NCBI GenBank assembly: GCA_913757435.1
Contig: CAJYDM010000001.1
Location: forward strand, 124,001 to 188,000
DNA from: Syntrophomonas sp. DTU019
GTDB lineage: Bacteria > Bacillota > Syntrophomonadia > Syntrophomonadales > Syntrophomonadaceae
Length of the DNA stretch: 64,000 nucleotides
Direction of reading: 5' to 3'
The notes beneath the pieces were generated by a model, which was not told the DNA's origin, did not search any database, and saw only the letters and a list, made by a program, of their open reading frames with translations. Both the position numbers and the translations under genes were made by a program. Below are positions 3,309 through 63,994 of the stretch, piece by piece. Numbering within the stretch: the first letter of the stretch is position 1; every line of letters begins with the position of its first letter.

Positions 3309-4070
3309 TCAAGCTTTCCAGCCTCCATCCAGGGCTAGAACGCTCCCATTTACAAAAGAATTCTGCGGAGACAGCAAAAACAGACAGGCTCGGGCCACAT
3401 CTTCCGGCTGTCCCCACCGACCTGTTGGCAACAGAGAAAGCAGGTCTTCCATTTCTCCTTCATCGAGGTCGGCTCTCAACATATCAGTAAGCACAGGCCC
3501 GGGTGCAATTGCGTTGACGGTGACGCCCGAAGGCCCCACCTCGCCGGCCAGGGATTTGCTCAACGCGATCAGCCCGCCCTTGGAAGCTGCATAAGCACCT
3601 TCACATGAACCTCCGCAAATCCCCTGCATCGAAGCAATATTGACGATACGGCCAAAACGCTTCTTGATCATAGATGGCAAGGCACGCCGTGAACAGAGGA
3701 ATGGTCCGGTCAGGTTGACCCCTATCAGCCGTTCCCAGTCATCATCACCGGTATCGGTTAACAGTCCTTTAAAAGCCACCCCGGCATTATTCACCAAAAG
3801 ATCGACCGCGCCCAGATGCCTTTCTATATAGTTGAACATATTGTCCACCTGAAAGGCATCACTGACATCGGCCTGTACTATTAAGCATCGTCCCCCCCGG
3901 TCAGTCAACTGATCAGCCAGATTTGCCGCAGCCTGTTCGGAACGATAATAGTTTAGGGCCACATCGGCGCCCGCACCACTGGCGGCCATCGCAATGGCCC
4001 TCCCTATGCCCCTGGAAGCGCCGGTCACCAAACAAACCAGGCCGTCGAGGGGGTTAGTCCTTTTTGTCAT
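3309..4070 (-). CDS. Short-chain dehydrogenase/reductase, FabG-like
   Basis: A classical SDR of about 253 residues. The Rossmann nucleotide motif TGASRGIGRAIA, the NNAG motif, the catalytic Ser (NIASMQG) and YAASK (Tyr/Lys) are all visible, and PGPVLTDM follows as in 3-oxoacyl-ACP reductases. It probably reduces a 3-oxoacyl thioester or another carbonyl with NAD(P)H; the substrate cannot be read from the sequence. I chose the ATG at 4070 because the earlier in-frame TTG at 4100 lacks a ribosome site. It sits 39 bases after the selenoprotein gene and 15 bases before map, so the three are likely one operon. Confidence 0.88.
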   Translation of the reverse strand: MTKRTNPLDGLVCLVTGASRGIGRAIAMAASGAGADVALNYYRSEQAAANLADQLTDRGGRCLIVQADVSDAFQVDNMFNYIERHLGAVDLLVNNAGVAFKGLLTDTGDDDWERLIGVNLTGPFLCSRRALPSMIKKRFGRIVNIASMQGICGGSCEGAYAASKGGLIALSKSLAGEVGPSGVTVNAIAPGPVLTDMLRADLDEGEMEDLLSLLPTGRWGQPEDVARACLFLLSPQNSFVNGSVLALDGGWKA

Positions 4071-4109: not shown

Positions 4110-4448
4110 TTACTGTTCCTGCGTTTCATTCAAAAGCCTTTTAATTTGATTGACATCAAGGCCGCCGGCCATACGTGGCTGGCCATTGATAGCGATGATG
4201 GGGAAAATGTATCCCATCTGCACCACCCGGGATATCAATGGGAATGAATTCAAATCCCGGTTGGTAGTATCAATATAATCGACCTCGACCTTCTCGCCAT
4301 AAAGCTGCAGCATTTCTTCTTTTAGTTTTTCAACTGATTCCGCAACGGTTGATCCACAACCGCCCTCGAGTGAACAACCCGAGGAGCAGCTTCAACCCGA
4401 CTGGACAATGCCATCATAAATCTCAATCTTAACCACATCTTCGCTCAA
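4110..4448 (-). CDS. Thioredoxin-like selenoprotein with in-frame UGA (Sec19)
   Basis: A 112-codon frame starts at TTG 4448, seven bases after a perfect GGAGG. It is open to 4110 except for one TGA at 4392-4394, codon 19. The protein reads VKIEIYDGIVQSG-U-SCSSGCS, then an alpha/beta fold segment (VEVDYIDTT ... GYIFPIIAINGQPRMAGGL) resembling small thioredoxin/YuzD-like redox proteins with a cis-Pro-like IFPI. A stable hairpin follows the UGA at the spacing of a bacterial SECIS. A standard caller would start at ATG 4313 and lose the redox motif. The selenium genes at 7.1 kb fit. Expected role: thiol/selenol redox chemistry, partner unknown. It is the first gene of the SDR-map operon. It could instead be a pseudogene with a nonsense codon, but the hairpin and intact frame argue against this. 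Confidence 0.82.
4364..4394 (-). promoter_or_regulatory. Candidate bacterial SECIS element following UGA codon
   Basis: Directly after the UGA (4392-4394) come seven bases, then a seven-pair stem. The stem is CCTCGGG (4384-4378) with CTCGAGG (4370-4364), including one G-U pair, and it closes a seven-base loop TTGTTCA. The loop guanine is 17 bases past the UGA. Bacterial SelB-binding hairpins have this form: immediately 3' of UGA, short apical loop with a G, about 16-37 bases away. The stem lies inside the coding region, as expected in bacteria. Confidence 0.75.
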
Positions 4449-4499
4449 ATTACGACCTCCCTGAATGTGAAGAAACTTCCTTTTGTACCACTAACATAT

Positions 4500-4528
4500 A
4501 TTATACCGATACCTGGAGCTCTTAACCA
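4500..4528 (-). promoter_or_regulatory. Candidate sigma-A promoter for the selenoprotein operon
   Basis: On the minus strand a perfect TATAAT (4505-4500) lies about 50 bases before the TTG start of the selenoprotein gene. A weak -35 (TGGTTA, 4528-4523) is 17 bases upstream of it. The -10 is strong and the -35 matches only three of six positions. Confidence 0.4.
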
Positions 4529-5184
4529 CCACATTGGAGGGGGCCTTCATTAGGAGGAATGCAATTAACAAGCCCTGGCCTCACAAATTTTGTCCATATT
4601 TTCTCTGCTCTCTACATATATATAGCAATAAAACCATGATACAAGTCCCTGGAGAGTGAAGCATATTGACAAAACCCGATATCTCCAATAAAATAAAATC
4701 ACTTATGTATAGAATATACACCCATTGAATACAATTAATAGGTTAGCCAAACATATTCACTGTTTTAGTATAGTGTAAACGTGAGACCCGGTTTGGGGTA
4801 TGATTACAGGTTAAGATTTGAAGCTTCCTCCAACTGAATCCTCGATTTCAGGAAGGAAAGGCAGAGGAGATCGCAGAAAAACCGGAAATGCTGTATTCGT
4901 CGAAGCTACTAACAGCAATAATCATAGCCTAGATAAACTATTAATTGCCCAACCTCAACTACCTGTCATGGATAATACCTATCCCGTGGCGTCCTCAACA
5001 GAGACAGAAAGAGGAGAAAACAAACGCCACAGTCGATCTACCAACCTCTAACCCGGTGACACTGTTTTGGGCTTTTAGGGGAAACCATTTTGCTCCGGAG
5101 AGCCCATTGGATTTCTGAATAAGGAGGTGAACTGAGCCTAACGGAATCCTGAAATTTTAAGAAGAGGAAAAAGGAGGAGTTTAG
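4529..5184. other. Long intergenic region before the acetate-family transporter
   Basis: About 650 bases between the divergent selenoprotein operon and the transporter. It is AT-rich from 4600 to 4790. A 77-codon open frame (4818-5051, +) begins with TTG, has no ribosome site and a low-complexity hydrophilic product, so I do not call it. Near the transporter there are two purine-rich ribosome-like sites: AAGGAGGTGA near 5122, with no start codon at a usable distance, and AAAGGAGGAG just before 5185. A long untranslated leader for the transporter is likely, but I could not identify a known riboswitch in it. Confidence 0.4.
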
Positions 5185-5985: not shown

Positions 5986-7125
5986 TTAAGTGCGGGCTAT
6001 CTCCCGTACGGCCTCGATCACCGTGTGGATATCACTGACCGAGGTGAAGCAACCCGGGCTGATTCGGCATGCTCCAATAGCGGCAGTCCCAATAGTCTTA
6101 TGAGCCAGGGGAGCGCAATGCATTCCGGAACGGGATATAATACCATATTCCTGGTCCAGCCTCAAGCTCACCTCTCCGCAATCCATGCCACCGATATTGA
6201 ACGAGACTACCGCTGTCATCCGTTGGCTGTCGCCCGGGCCATATAAGGTCAGGCCGGATATGTTCCGCAATTCTCGGCACAAAATATCTGTAAGTTCCTG
6301 TTCATGACGGCGGATGTTATCTATTCCGGTCGCCAAAATAAATTCTACCCCAGCAGCCAACCCTGCTATACCAGGCGTGTTAGGAGTGCCTGATTCCAAA
6401 CGATCCGGCATGGTCGCAGGTTGCTCCAAGAGCTCCGAAGCAGAGCCTGTGCCTCCCTCTCGGAGCAGGCGCAGCTCCAACCTGGGGTCAACATAGATAC
6501 CTCCCGTGCCCTGAGGACCTAAAAGGCCTTTGTGCCCCGTAAAGGTCAGAATATCAATATGAGCAGCTTCTACGTCGATGGGCAGAACCCCTGCAGTCTG
6601 GGCGCTGTCCACCATAAATGTCAGGTCGTGACGTCTGGCAATCAGCCCCACCTCTTCGATGGGCAGAATAGTGCCGGTCAGATTAGAGGCATGCAGCATA
6701 CAGATCATACGAGTATTGGCCTTGATAGCTGGCACGATATGGTCCGGGTTCAAAGAACCATCGGCCCTACACGGAATCGCGGTCCACTCCACTCCCAGCC
6801 GGGAGAGGGCATGTAAAGGCCTGGCCACCGCGTTGTGCTCCATGCTAGTGGTGATGATGTGGTCGCCGGGCCTTAATATTCCCTTGAGGCCAATATTGAT
6901 GGCATCGGTAATATTAGCCGTAAAAGCGATCTGCGCCGCATCTTTGACATTAAAAAGGCGGGCCAGCAGTTCACGACATTCCAGCAAAATTGCGCCCGCT
7001 CTAAGTGTAGCCTGGTGACTGCCCCGTCCCGGACTACCTCCGAGGTTGCGGTTAAAATGGTCAACCGCCTGGTATACCGCTTCCGGTTTAGGAAAGCTGG
7101 TGGCGGCGTTGTCCATGTATATCAA
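5986..7125 (-). CDS. Cysteine desulfurase-family PLP enzyme (selenium-associated type)
   Basis: A 379-residue class V aminotransferase-fold protein. It begins MIYMDNAATSFPKP, the opening of the cysteine desulfurase subfamily often found near selD/yedF. The PLP lysine lies in TGHKGLLGPQGTGG, and a likely catalytic Cys is in SGMHCAPLAHKTIG. Such enzymes remove sulfur from cysteine or selenium from selenocysteine. It lies 20 bases downstream of yedF on the same strand, which supports a role in selenium delivery. The exact donor and acceptor are inferred only. Confidence 0.9.
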   Translation of the reverse strand: MIYMDNAATSFPKPEAVYQAVDHFNRNLGGSPGRGSHQATLRAGAILLECRELLARLFNVKDAAQIAFTANITDAINIGLKGILRPGDHIITTSMEHNAVARPLHALSRLGVEWTAIPCRADGSLNPDHIVPAIKANTRMICMLHASNLTGTILPIEEVGLIARRHDLTFMVDSAQTAGVLPIDVEAAHIDILTFTGHKGLLGPQGTGGIYVDPRLELRLLREGGTGSASELLEQPATMPDRLESGTPNTPGIAGLAAGVEFILATGIDNIRRHEQELTDILCRELRNISGLTLYGPGDSQRMTAVVSFNIGGMDCGEVSLRLDQEYGIISRSGMHCAPLAHKTIGTAAIGACRISPGCFTSVSDIHTVIEAVREIART

Positions 7126-7145: not shown

Positions 7146-7754
7146 TTAAATGGTGAGATTTCGTGGCGTGCTAGTCAATATCTCCATAGCGTTATACATG
7201 TTGGTGATCGTTCCAACCGCCAGTTTATCCTTTTTATTGTAGAAATCCAAACAAGTCCCGCAGCTGAGCAAGGATACTCCCAAATCTTGCAAAGCCTGCA
7301 ACTGATCTAATACCGGGGAACCTGCCACAGTAAGCAAGACCCCACGATTCATGAATACAACATATTTGATGTTGGCGGTCTCATTGAGGGTGTAAAGAAA
7401 GCTTTTCATCAACACCTGACCGAGTTCAGGGTCACCATCTCCAAAGAGATCACTCTTCACCAGTATGGACACCTCAGTTGGCCGGTTCTCCTGCCCCGAA
7501 TCACTTGCAGGGGAAACAAGCGGATCTGGTGCAGCCTGTTTTTGCATAGTTATCTGGAAAAACCCTTCCTGTGGTTCTACGGTAACATCATAACCTTGAC
7601 TTATGCCCAGTTTGCTGACATTCTCCCGGGCCGCCAGATTATCTACAATTATTACCAGCCGCTCCTCACCCTGGTCAATGCTTTTTTTGGTGAGTATTAC
7701 CGGCTCCGGACAGTTTAAGCCCCTGGCATCGATATTGAATGACAACGATCTCAT
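7146..7754 (-). CDS. yedF: Selenium-metabolism protein YedF (TusA domain plus DsrE-like domain)
   Basis: A 202-residue two-domain protein. The N-terminal TusA-like domain has the sulfurtransferase motif NCPEP near residue 14. The C-terminal DsrE-like domain has FMNRGVLLT and then a CGTCLDFY motif. This layout defines the YedF family, which tracks with selenium use in bacteria, especially selenium-dependent molybdenum hydroxylases. It is the first gene of a two-gene unit with the cysteine desulfurase. The ATG at 7754 has AAAGG directly touching it, so a TTG nine bases further in (7745) is a plausible alternative start. Confidence 0.9.
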   Translation of the reverse strand: MRSLSFNIDARGLNCPEPVILTKKSIDQGEERLVIIVDNLAARENVSKLGISQGYDVTVEPQEGFFQITMQKQAAPDPLVSPASDSGQENRPTEVSILVKSDLFGDGDPELGQVLMKSFLYTLNETANIKYVVFMNRGVLLTVAGSPVLDQLQALQDLGVSLLSCGTCLDFYNKKDKLAVGTITNMYNAMEILTSTPRNLTI

Positions 7755-39172: not shown

Positions 39173-39396
39173 ATGAGGCTAGCTTTCGTCAAATACCACA
39201 GGAAACCAGCCACTTTCAGGCTGACCCGGATCCAGCCGGGGTGTCATATCAAGATTATGGTCCCGTTAAGTCTTAATTTATTAATCAACTTATGAAAGTA
39301 TCGCGTCTTTTGGTATAATTTATATATATTTCTATATAAACTTGGTACTATTGTTATACGAAAATATAATAAGGTGTTCCTTAAATACCACCAAGG

Positions 39397-39484
39397 AAAA
39401 AGGCAAACCCATCGAAAGATGGCGACGCAAAGCTATAGGGGCTAAAACGTGCGTATCGTAAAGCCAGCCAGTTGCCGGTACAGG
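39397..39484 (+). promoter_or_regulatory. Cyclic di-GMP-I riboswitch (GEMM-I)
   Basis: The motif is close to the GEMM consensus: GGCAAACC, GAAA tetraloop stem, GACGCAAAGC and GGGGCTAAA, then CCAGTTGCCGG closing the outer stem. It sits about 65 bases before a secreted transglutaminase-like gene, with a hairpin between. Binding of c-di-GMP should switch that gene; the direction is not deducible. Confidence 0.94.
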
Positions 39485-62484: not shown

Positions 62485-62640
62485 CTTCCAATATGGGCTT
62501 CCACATGAAGGCCCTTTGTCGCAGGCATTGCTGCCTGTTTTACTGGCCTCCTGACGGTGGTGGGCACCGGGGCATCCGCCGAACGATTCGATAAACCTCC
62601 TCGTCAACCCGCAGTATAAAACAAAGCGGGTCCAGGCGCT
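62485..62640 (-). ncRNA. glmS ribozyme/riboswitch
   Basis: On the minus strand the element starts with AGCGCC at 62640 and has the conserved core GACGAGGAGGTTTATCGAA, then TCGGCGGATGCCCCGG, followed by the 3' pairing region. The RNA self-cleaves before the first G of GCGCC (between 62640 and 62639) when glucosamine-6-phosphate is high, and the glmS message is then degraded. The 3' edge is approximate. Confidence 0.95.
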
Positions 62641-62644
62641 GACT

Positions 62645-63994
62645 TTATTGTTTGGCTACCTCTTCCACTGCTTTCTTGATATCATTGATCACTTCCTTTA
62701 ACAGATAATGGTCCGGCCTGAGCCATAAGCCTGACCAGCGGTTCAGTTCCTGAAGGTCTCAACACCAGTTTGCCCCATTCCCCAACCTGGTTTCAGCATC
62801 GGCCAGAGCGGCTTGCACCAGATCATGGCTTAGCACCGCTTCCTTATTCTCGATGCGCATTGACCAGTAATTGAGGATATTTCTCCATTTCCGGCCCAGT
62901 TCAGACAGACTCAAACCAGTCCGTTGCATCACCTCCACCAGTTTGATTGAAGTCAACAGACCGTCTCCGGTGTTGGCATACTGTTTGAAAATAATGTGCC
63001 CCGACTGCTCGCCACCTAGCAGAGCTCCGGTTTCCACCATTTTTTCCAACACATAGCGATCCCCCACCTTGCAGCTGTCGACCCTCACATTCTCCCTCCG
63101 CAGAGCGATCTCAAAGCCGATATTGCTCATTACCGTAGCCACCACTGAGGCAGGCTTAAGAAGCTTCTGGCGGCGCATATCCAGAGCGCAGATCAGCATA
63201 ATATGATCGCCGTCAAGTTCATTGCCCTTTTCATCTATGGCAATGCAGCGGTCAGCATCACCATCATATGCGATGCCTAAATCGGCGTGGTAATGCAGCA
63301 CCGCCTTTTTCAACGGCTCGGTATGGGTGGAACCGCAACGGTCATTGATATTGATGCCATTCGGCTTGTCGCCAATGCTTATGACCCGTGCGCCCAGGCG
63401 CTGCCACAACTCTGGAGCTACATGGTAAGCCGCCCCGTTGGCACAGTCTAGAACCACTGTCATGCCCTGTAGATCCATGTTCCCGACGCAGCAGGAGCAA
63501 AGATGCTGCAAATAACTCTGGTTGGCGGCTTCCACACTGTAAACCCGGCCTACATCAGGTCCCTGCGGCCTGCTCAAGCCTTCGGTACCGTGTTGCACCA
63601 ACTCCTCAATCTTATGTTCTATCTCATCGGGTAGTTTATATCCTGCCGGGCCGAAGAATTTGATGCCATTATCTTCAACCGGGTTGTGTGATGCAGAAAT
63701 CACTATACCGCAATTGGCCTGATATTTTTCTGTCAAATAGGCCACCGCCGGAGTAGGGACTATTCCTGCGGTCAAGACGTCCGCACCGGTGGAACATATT
63801 CCCGCTAAAAGGGCGGATTCAAGCATATCCCCGGATATGCGGGTATCTTTACCTACTAAAATTCGCGGCCTTCCCGCAGGATTCTGCTGCGCCAGTATAT
63901 AGCTGCCCGCCCGCCCCAGTTTAAAGGCCAGCTCGGCTGTTAAATCCAAATTGGCGATGCCTCTGACTCCATCTGTACCGAATAAACTCCCCAC
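62645..63994 (-). CDS. glmM: Phosphoglucosamine mutase GlmM with frameshifted C-terminal domain
   Basis: GlmM makes glucosamine-1-phosphate from GlmS product. The first 411 residues are typical: LFGTDGVRGIAN, the phosphoserine in ISASHNPVED (S102) and DGDADRC. The given frame stops at 62759 after GNGANWC, where GNGGKLVLRPSGTEP is expected. A one-base loss at a G run (62773-62776) and a two-base loss (or one-base gain) near 62717 restore the frame; the conserved PSGTEP lies between in the other frame. The reading frame ends at TAA 62647-62645, five bases before the ribozyme. Start GTG 63994. Sequence error or real mutation cannot be told apart. Confidence 0.88.

Follow-up and report, generated by a model that had tools for sequence, protein, structure and literature searches.

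Selenocysteine (Sec) is found in UxC, UxxC or CxxU motifs of several small proteins with a thioredoxin fold, namely Sec-Trx, SaoT, HUIPC and the Brachyspira proteins Sec.1 and Sec.2, and both the predicted fold and the motifs are shared by the family described here. The arsenic metallochaperone ArsD has a cluster of cysteines after its first strand. In the Brachyspira proteins, Sec lies in a short extension preceding a Thioredoxin_3 domain (PMC5330540), and DUF1462, the family of YuzD, is accepted as thioredoxin-like (PMC3091736). Selenoproteins of the FdhA type with a bacterial SECIS element (bSECIS) have a UGA followed, within the gene, by a stem-loop with a G in its loop; the bSECIS model specifies a loop of 3-9 nt, a stem of 4-16 bp and a distance of 16-37 nt from the UGA (PMC13188914). 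For Syntrophomonas wolfei, a list from 2006 gives ten selenoproteins, and the present family is not among them (PMC1794560).

We analysed a stretch of 64,000 nucleotides from Syntrophomonas sp. DTU019, referred to here as the window, in which a thioredoxin-like selenoprotein with an in-frame UGA had been proposed from the letters of the DNA. Comparative analysis indicates that the UGA at 4394-4392 almost certainly encodes Sec. The joint assignment, Sec coding together with membership of the thioredoxin-fold class, is also highly probable.

A UGA codon within a conserved reading frame

The candidate selenoprotein gene (4110..4448, minus strand) has 112 codons, a TTG start and a TAA stop, and its translation reads LSEDVVKIEIYDGIVQSGUSCSSGCSLEGGCGSTVAESV...NETQEQ*. 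The only TGA inside the frame is codon 19 (4392..4394, minus strand), which encodes the candidate residue U19. A Shine-Dalgarno sequence, GGAGG, is found 7 nt upstream of the TTG (4456..4460, minus strand) and is conserved in the genus; further upstream, a TATAAT kept in four species (4500..4505, minus strand) is a probable -10 promoter element. The TTG start is supported by alignment, since ATG occupies the equivalent position in the other three sequenced genomes of the genus. Translation therefore confirmed the original prediction in its frame, start, ribosome-binding site and lone in-frame TGA. Its claim that standard calling would truncate the gene also held: the ORF listing yields only a 67-aa ORF from the ATG at 4313 (4110..4313, minus strand), which covers the C-terminal part and lacks the Sec/Cys motif.

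Among four members of the genus, pN/pS was 0.40 before the TGA, 0.44 just after it and 0.24 in the remainder, values which indicate that purifying selection is acting on both sides of the TGA. In the same four members, the 26 codons that follow the TGA, where the hairpin described below overlaps the frame, show a pS of 0.47, down from about 0.75, as would be expected if the RNA were constrained there.

A homologue was present in 35 genomes in a search of 61 relatives. In an order-wide profile search, 42/63 genomes had a member, and in about 30 of these genomes a member holds a TGA; in a sample of the phylum the profile found members in 80 of 398 genomes, with a TGA-containing member in 44 of these 80. 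The closest relatives in named collections are metagenome-assembled genomes of Syntrophomonas, while S. wolfei subsp. methylbutyratica, S. palmitatica and S. zehnderi belong to the wider set. S. wolfei has a UGA member of its own (L023/L069). No relatives of the family were found in plasmid records or viral contigs.

Codon 19, at which the original prediction had expected homologues to carry Cys or UGA, does correspond to a column of UGA or Cys in the aligned members, and TGA occupies it in all three other sequenced members of the genus (4/4 with the window gene). Motifs across the family include GGUSCSxxC and GGUxxC, with CxxGGUGP in another large branch. The UGA can also shift to the partner cysteine, as two members with UxxC (L035 and L030) have relatives with CxxU (L022 and L028). 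On an 83-member tree, 19 changes between UGA and Cys are needed; the tree is poorly resolved, and its starred branches alone force 4.

Several members deserve separate mention. One UGA member (L073) has U-N-Y in place of U-x-C, and the middle cysteine is therefore dispensable in at least one species. A large branch (L058, L059 and most of L163-L187) has the motif FGSRxxDxCxxGGUGPxQSQEE and only UGA forms in our sample; two of its members were compared with NCBIfam and matched nothing near cut-off, and its genes often follow queD-queC or lie near trxB. This branch is likely a further uncatalogued selenoprotein group. The host genome also encodes a second, Cys-only paralogue without a TGA (L040, G000:C6:94855-95190; SCEGCSGGGCCG), which the other three members of the genus have as well. 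Decoding of UAG had been suspected from TAG counts and was rejected, TAG being the normal gene end in L148, L158 and L167. One Cys-form member (L017:1483-1842) has an in-frame TAG (GAG GTA TAG CAG GGG) where its relatives have Leu, which may reflect a pseudogene, an assembly error or recoding.

The host is equipped for Sec and has UGA within other genes of classical selenoproteins, given that its genome contains selA with selB directly behind it, a tRNA-Sec gene (selC) above the Rfam cut-off, a selD carrying its own in-frame TGA, and two full-length formate dehydrogenase genes (fdhA) with one TGA in each. All four sel genes, named as a check in the original prediction, are thus present, and together with the aligned homologues that have UGA or Cys they support its reading of a true selenoprotein. 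A curated SelB model found SelB in 44/44 genomes with a TGA member, compared with 26/36 genomes with TGA-free members only (Fisher p 1.5e-4, uncorrected for kinship). This comparison was made in the phylum sample because nearly all genomes within the order encode SelB, so that its presence there does not discriminate.

A conserved hairpin downstream of the UGA

A bSECIS-like hairpin of 8 pairs, GGCGGUUG-UGGAU-CAACCGUU, spans 4364-4344 (minus strand) over the codons Gly-Cys-Gly-Ser-Thr and is marked by conservation and compensatory pairs. Its loop, UGGAU (4356-4352), is 35 nt 3' of the UGA and has G at the second position, and its folding energy is -12.3 kcal/mol. The hairpin with G in its loop at SECIS distance, as originally proposed, is real. 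Two tandem hairpins follow the UGA, and this is a difference from the FdhA-type elements; the conserved one is distal, and the intervening 8-bp hairpin has no G at its first two loop positions.

We applied the bSECIS rule of the published model (PMC13188914), with a G at one of the first two positions of the loop and an MFE of at most -7.5. The window hairpin passes this rule, its spacing of 35 nt being near the upper limit of 37. So do 47/55 UGA members, and also 57% of synonymous-codon shuffles, the rule being a loose one. For the window gene alone the hairpin energy is ordinary, with 45% of synonymous-codon shuffles as low, while the UGA members as a group have hairpin energies below those of synonymous shuffles (p about 1e-8). 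The evidential weight of the hairpin therefore lies in its conservation across the family and not in the energy of a single gene.

In the 28 UGA members compared, the hairpin lies over the codons Ser/Gly-Cys-Gly-x-Thr/Ala. When sites were aligned, all five core pairs were intact in 24/28 UGA members versus 2/20 Cys members, and four UGA members (L027, L029, L030 and L077) lack the full conserved hairpin. Compensation is visible at the third base of the Ser/Gly codon, which is U with Thr (A) in 18 sequences and C with Ala (G) in 6. Since some covariation in these columns is seen among the Cys members too, the share of six-pair cells that are paired (92% in UGA members vs 59% in Cys members) is the sharper difference. 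The site-aligned pair count was used in place of a comparison of mean energies between UGA and Cys members, which was marginal (p 0.04) and included misassigned sites. In the CxxU members L022 and L028 the hairpin stays in place and is now 17 nt from the UGA. One of the two Cys members with an intact hairpin, from S. zehnderi (L019), may represent a recent change from UGA to Cys that kept the stem.

These observations bear on two readings in which the UGA is not a Sec codon. If the TGA were a genuine stop, left by a pseudogene or a sequencing error or separating two genes, the product would be the 67-aa protein from ATG 4313 that standard ORF calling returns; we regard this as very improbable, given that independent genomes, and members across the phylum, share a TGA at this codon, that it alternates with Cys, and that the frame is open and under purifying selection on either side. 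Insertion of some other amino acid, through a general reassignment of the stop codon or natural suppression, would account for the open frame and for nothing further, and it is hardly credible in a host with a complete Sec system that also has UGA in selD and fdhA. Moreover, the conserved hairpin is mostly missing from Cys members, the alternating residue is Cys, and every TGA genome in the phylum sample encodes SelB. Decoding as Sec remains the reading that we prefer.

A predicted fold related to DUF1462 and ArsD

An AlphaFold2 model built with the family alignment had a mean pLDDT of 85 and a pTM of 0.77. The best match among solved structures was 1xg8, the DUF1462/YuzD protein of Staphylococcus aureus, with Z 10.0 and a Foldseek E of 3e-4; ArsD came next (Z 9.7), ahead of thioredoxins with Z near 8. 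The family profile also finds 1xg8 by sequence (E 7e-8), and the YuzD-like domain guessed at in the original prediction is thus supported by both profile and fold comparison. DUF1462/YuzD resembles the window protein in its thioredoxin-like fold of about 110 residues. It differs in that the window protein matches PF07315 at E 0.008 and 16.9 bits, below the gathering cut-off of 25; one family member (L028) passes this cut-off with 26.9 bits.

In the numbering of the 112-residue form, the loop after strand 1 holds U19, C21 and C25. This Sec loop was modelled poorly (pLDDT under 50), and the redox pair is not visible in the model on account of that low confidence. At the site of the thioredoxin CGPC motif the protein has C31-G-S-T, in which the second Cys is absent. 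P83 is invariant and likely occupies the cis-proline position of thioredoxins. With E values up to 1 allowed, the general thioredoxin model PF00085 did not match the window protein.

ArsD has a similar fold, and relatives of the window protein adjoin arsD and arsA. The window protein, however, looks more like a thioredoxin in its C31-G-S-T at the CGPC position and in P83, and its gene has no ars genes adjoining. The ArsD models NF033727 and PF06953 did not match it, and against other family members they gave weak matches, at best E 0.003, below cut-off.

Other catalogued families were considered and rejected. A SaoT-like thioredoxin selenoprotein had been suggested as one comparison, which proved unsupported: the SaoT model NF040730 matched neither the window protein (E up to 1) nor 45 members (E up to 0.1) nor a further test of 8 members (E up to 10). 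No Sao-type transporter was recognised among the scanned neighbours of the window gene, and in one member (L063) a neighbouring permease matched SaoE with 134.6, below the cut-off of 325. The best score for HUIPC (NF047660) was 18.8 bits in one member against a cut-off of 105, PF13192, which represents the Brachyspira Sec.1 and Sec.2 proteins, gave no match above cut-off, and TsoX was dropped for want of a match.

Gene neighbourhoods and possible function

In the genus of the window the gene order is yedF, a desulfurase gene, a transporter gene on the opposite strand, a gap of about 730-735 bases, the selenoprotein gene, a short-chain dehydrogenase gene and a methionine aminopeptidase gene. 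In the window, YedF, a selenium-metabolism sulfurtransferase-like protein, is encoded at 7146..7754 (minus strand; TIGR03527, 194 bits over 110), and its genus-conserved neighbour, a cysteine-desulfurase family protein (TIGR01977), at 5986..7125 (minus strand). Both had been read as markers of selenium use; this stands for YedF, which passes TIGR03527, but not for the desulfurase, which matches only the general TIGR01977 and stays below the cut-off for selenocysteine lyase. The opposite-strand transporter is of the acetate type, and the short-chain dehydrogenase identified by Pfam (3309..4070, minus strand) lies directly downstream of the selenoprotein gene, in an order kept in the genus.

The gap itself (4446-5184) is conserved in length and in long blocks in four species. 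A plus-strand segment of it, 4800-4905, shows weak similarity to the ylbH leader (18.9 bits against a cut-off of 50) and may act as a leader for the transporter gene at the RNA level. Elsewhere in the window, a glmS ribozyme (62497-62651, minus strand) and a c-di-GMP-I riboswitch (39392-39479, plus strand) score above their Rfam cut-offs.

Across the family the contexts are varied. The gene directly follows arsD-arsA-arsA in five members (L158, L160, L161, L167 and L170), and others adjoin genes for ACR3, ArsR or a SaoE-like permease. Six members have trxB within a few genes; the window gene itself has no neighbour from the thioredoxin system. Further members follow queD-queC or precede riboflavin genes, in many Syntrophomonadaceae miaB, a ylbF-like gene with a Cys-rich tail and mutS lie downstream, and in L148 and L152 yedF does. 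Because these contexts share thiol, metalloid and redox chemistry and no single pathway, we place a general selenol/thiol redox role first and a metalloid chaperone second.

We propose that the stem-loop at 4364-4344 would direct SelA, SelB, SelC and SelD of the host to translate the UGA at 4394-4392 as Sec. The product would be a 112-residue thioredoxin-fold protein, probably cytosolic and remotely related to DUF1462/YuzD and ArsD, with U19, C21 and C25 in the flexible loop that follows strand 1. U19 would attack a disulfide or a thiol substrate in another oxidised form; a selenenylsulfide would then form between U19 and a cysteine of this loop, most likely C25, to be reduced again by the thioredoxin system or by low-molecular thiols. 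For this selenol/thiol mechanism, with its presumed redox pair, substrate and recycling, we judge the chances to be about even.

The Sec/Cys cluster might instead bind arsenite or some other metalloid or soft metal and pass it on, in the way that ArsD delivers As(III) to ArsA, with Sec acting as a ligand and not as a redox catalyst. The rank of ArsD as second-best structural match, the weak ArsD-model matches in some members, the five genes placed after arsD-arsA-arsA and the proximity of others to ACR3, ArsR or SaoE-like permease genes all point in this direction. Yet the window protein has no ArsD match, its gene and most of those in Syntrophomonadaceae are away from ars genes, and the trxB, queDC, miaB and rib contexts fit poorly with a purely arsenic role, so that we hold this function to be possible but doubtful for the family. 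A role as carrier or regenerator of sulfur, selenium or Fe-S clusters, for example for MiaB, or as partner of the desulfurase and YedF, seems to us unlikely. The evidence for it comes from neighbouring genes: the miaB - ylbF-like - mutS arrangement, the nearby yedF and desulfurase genes in the genus, the yedF that follows in two other members and the position of Bacillus subtilis yuzD next to the NifU-like yutI. The yedF-desulfurase pair of the genus, however, sits beyond an opposite-strand transporter gene, and miaB-ylbF-mutS may simply be a stable block. We therefore retain selenol/thiol redox chemistry as the favoured role.

Conclusions

No NCBIfam model matched the window protein or the tested relatives near cut-off, neither DUF1462 nor anything comparable is listed among the 119 prokaryotic selenoprotein families of an inventory from 2026 (PMC13188914), and no paper linking DUF1462 to selenoproteins came up in our text searches. 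A thioredoxin-fold selenoprotein family new to the catalogues is thus a probable conclusion, with unpublished or record-level annotation possible. We put forward more tentatively the broader view of an uncatalogued, Firmicutes-wide family in which Sec switches between the partners of a single redox or ligand pair over a fixed SECIS, and some of whose members would accompany ArsD/ArsA in handling metalloids, as partners that contribute Sec.

The family adds a selenoprotein candidate to the model syntrophs, and the more than 50 UGA-bearing members read here would each be split or truncated by gene callers that take UGA as a stop. The alternation of UGA and Cys, together with the swap of UxxC and CxxU over a fixed hairpin, offers a natural series for understanding why Sec is kept or lost. 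The members in ars operons point to a testable role of Sec in metalloid handling; if the broader view is true, the companions of ArsD/ArsA would be selenol-based metallochaperones or arsenic-thiol reductases.
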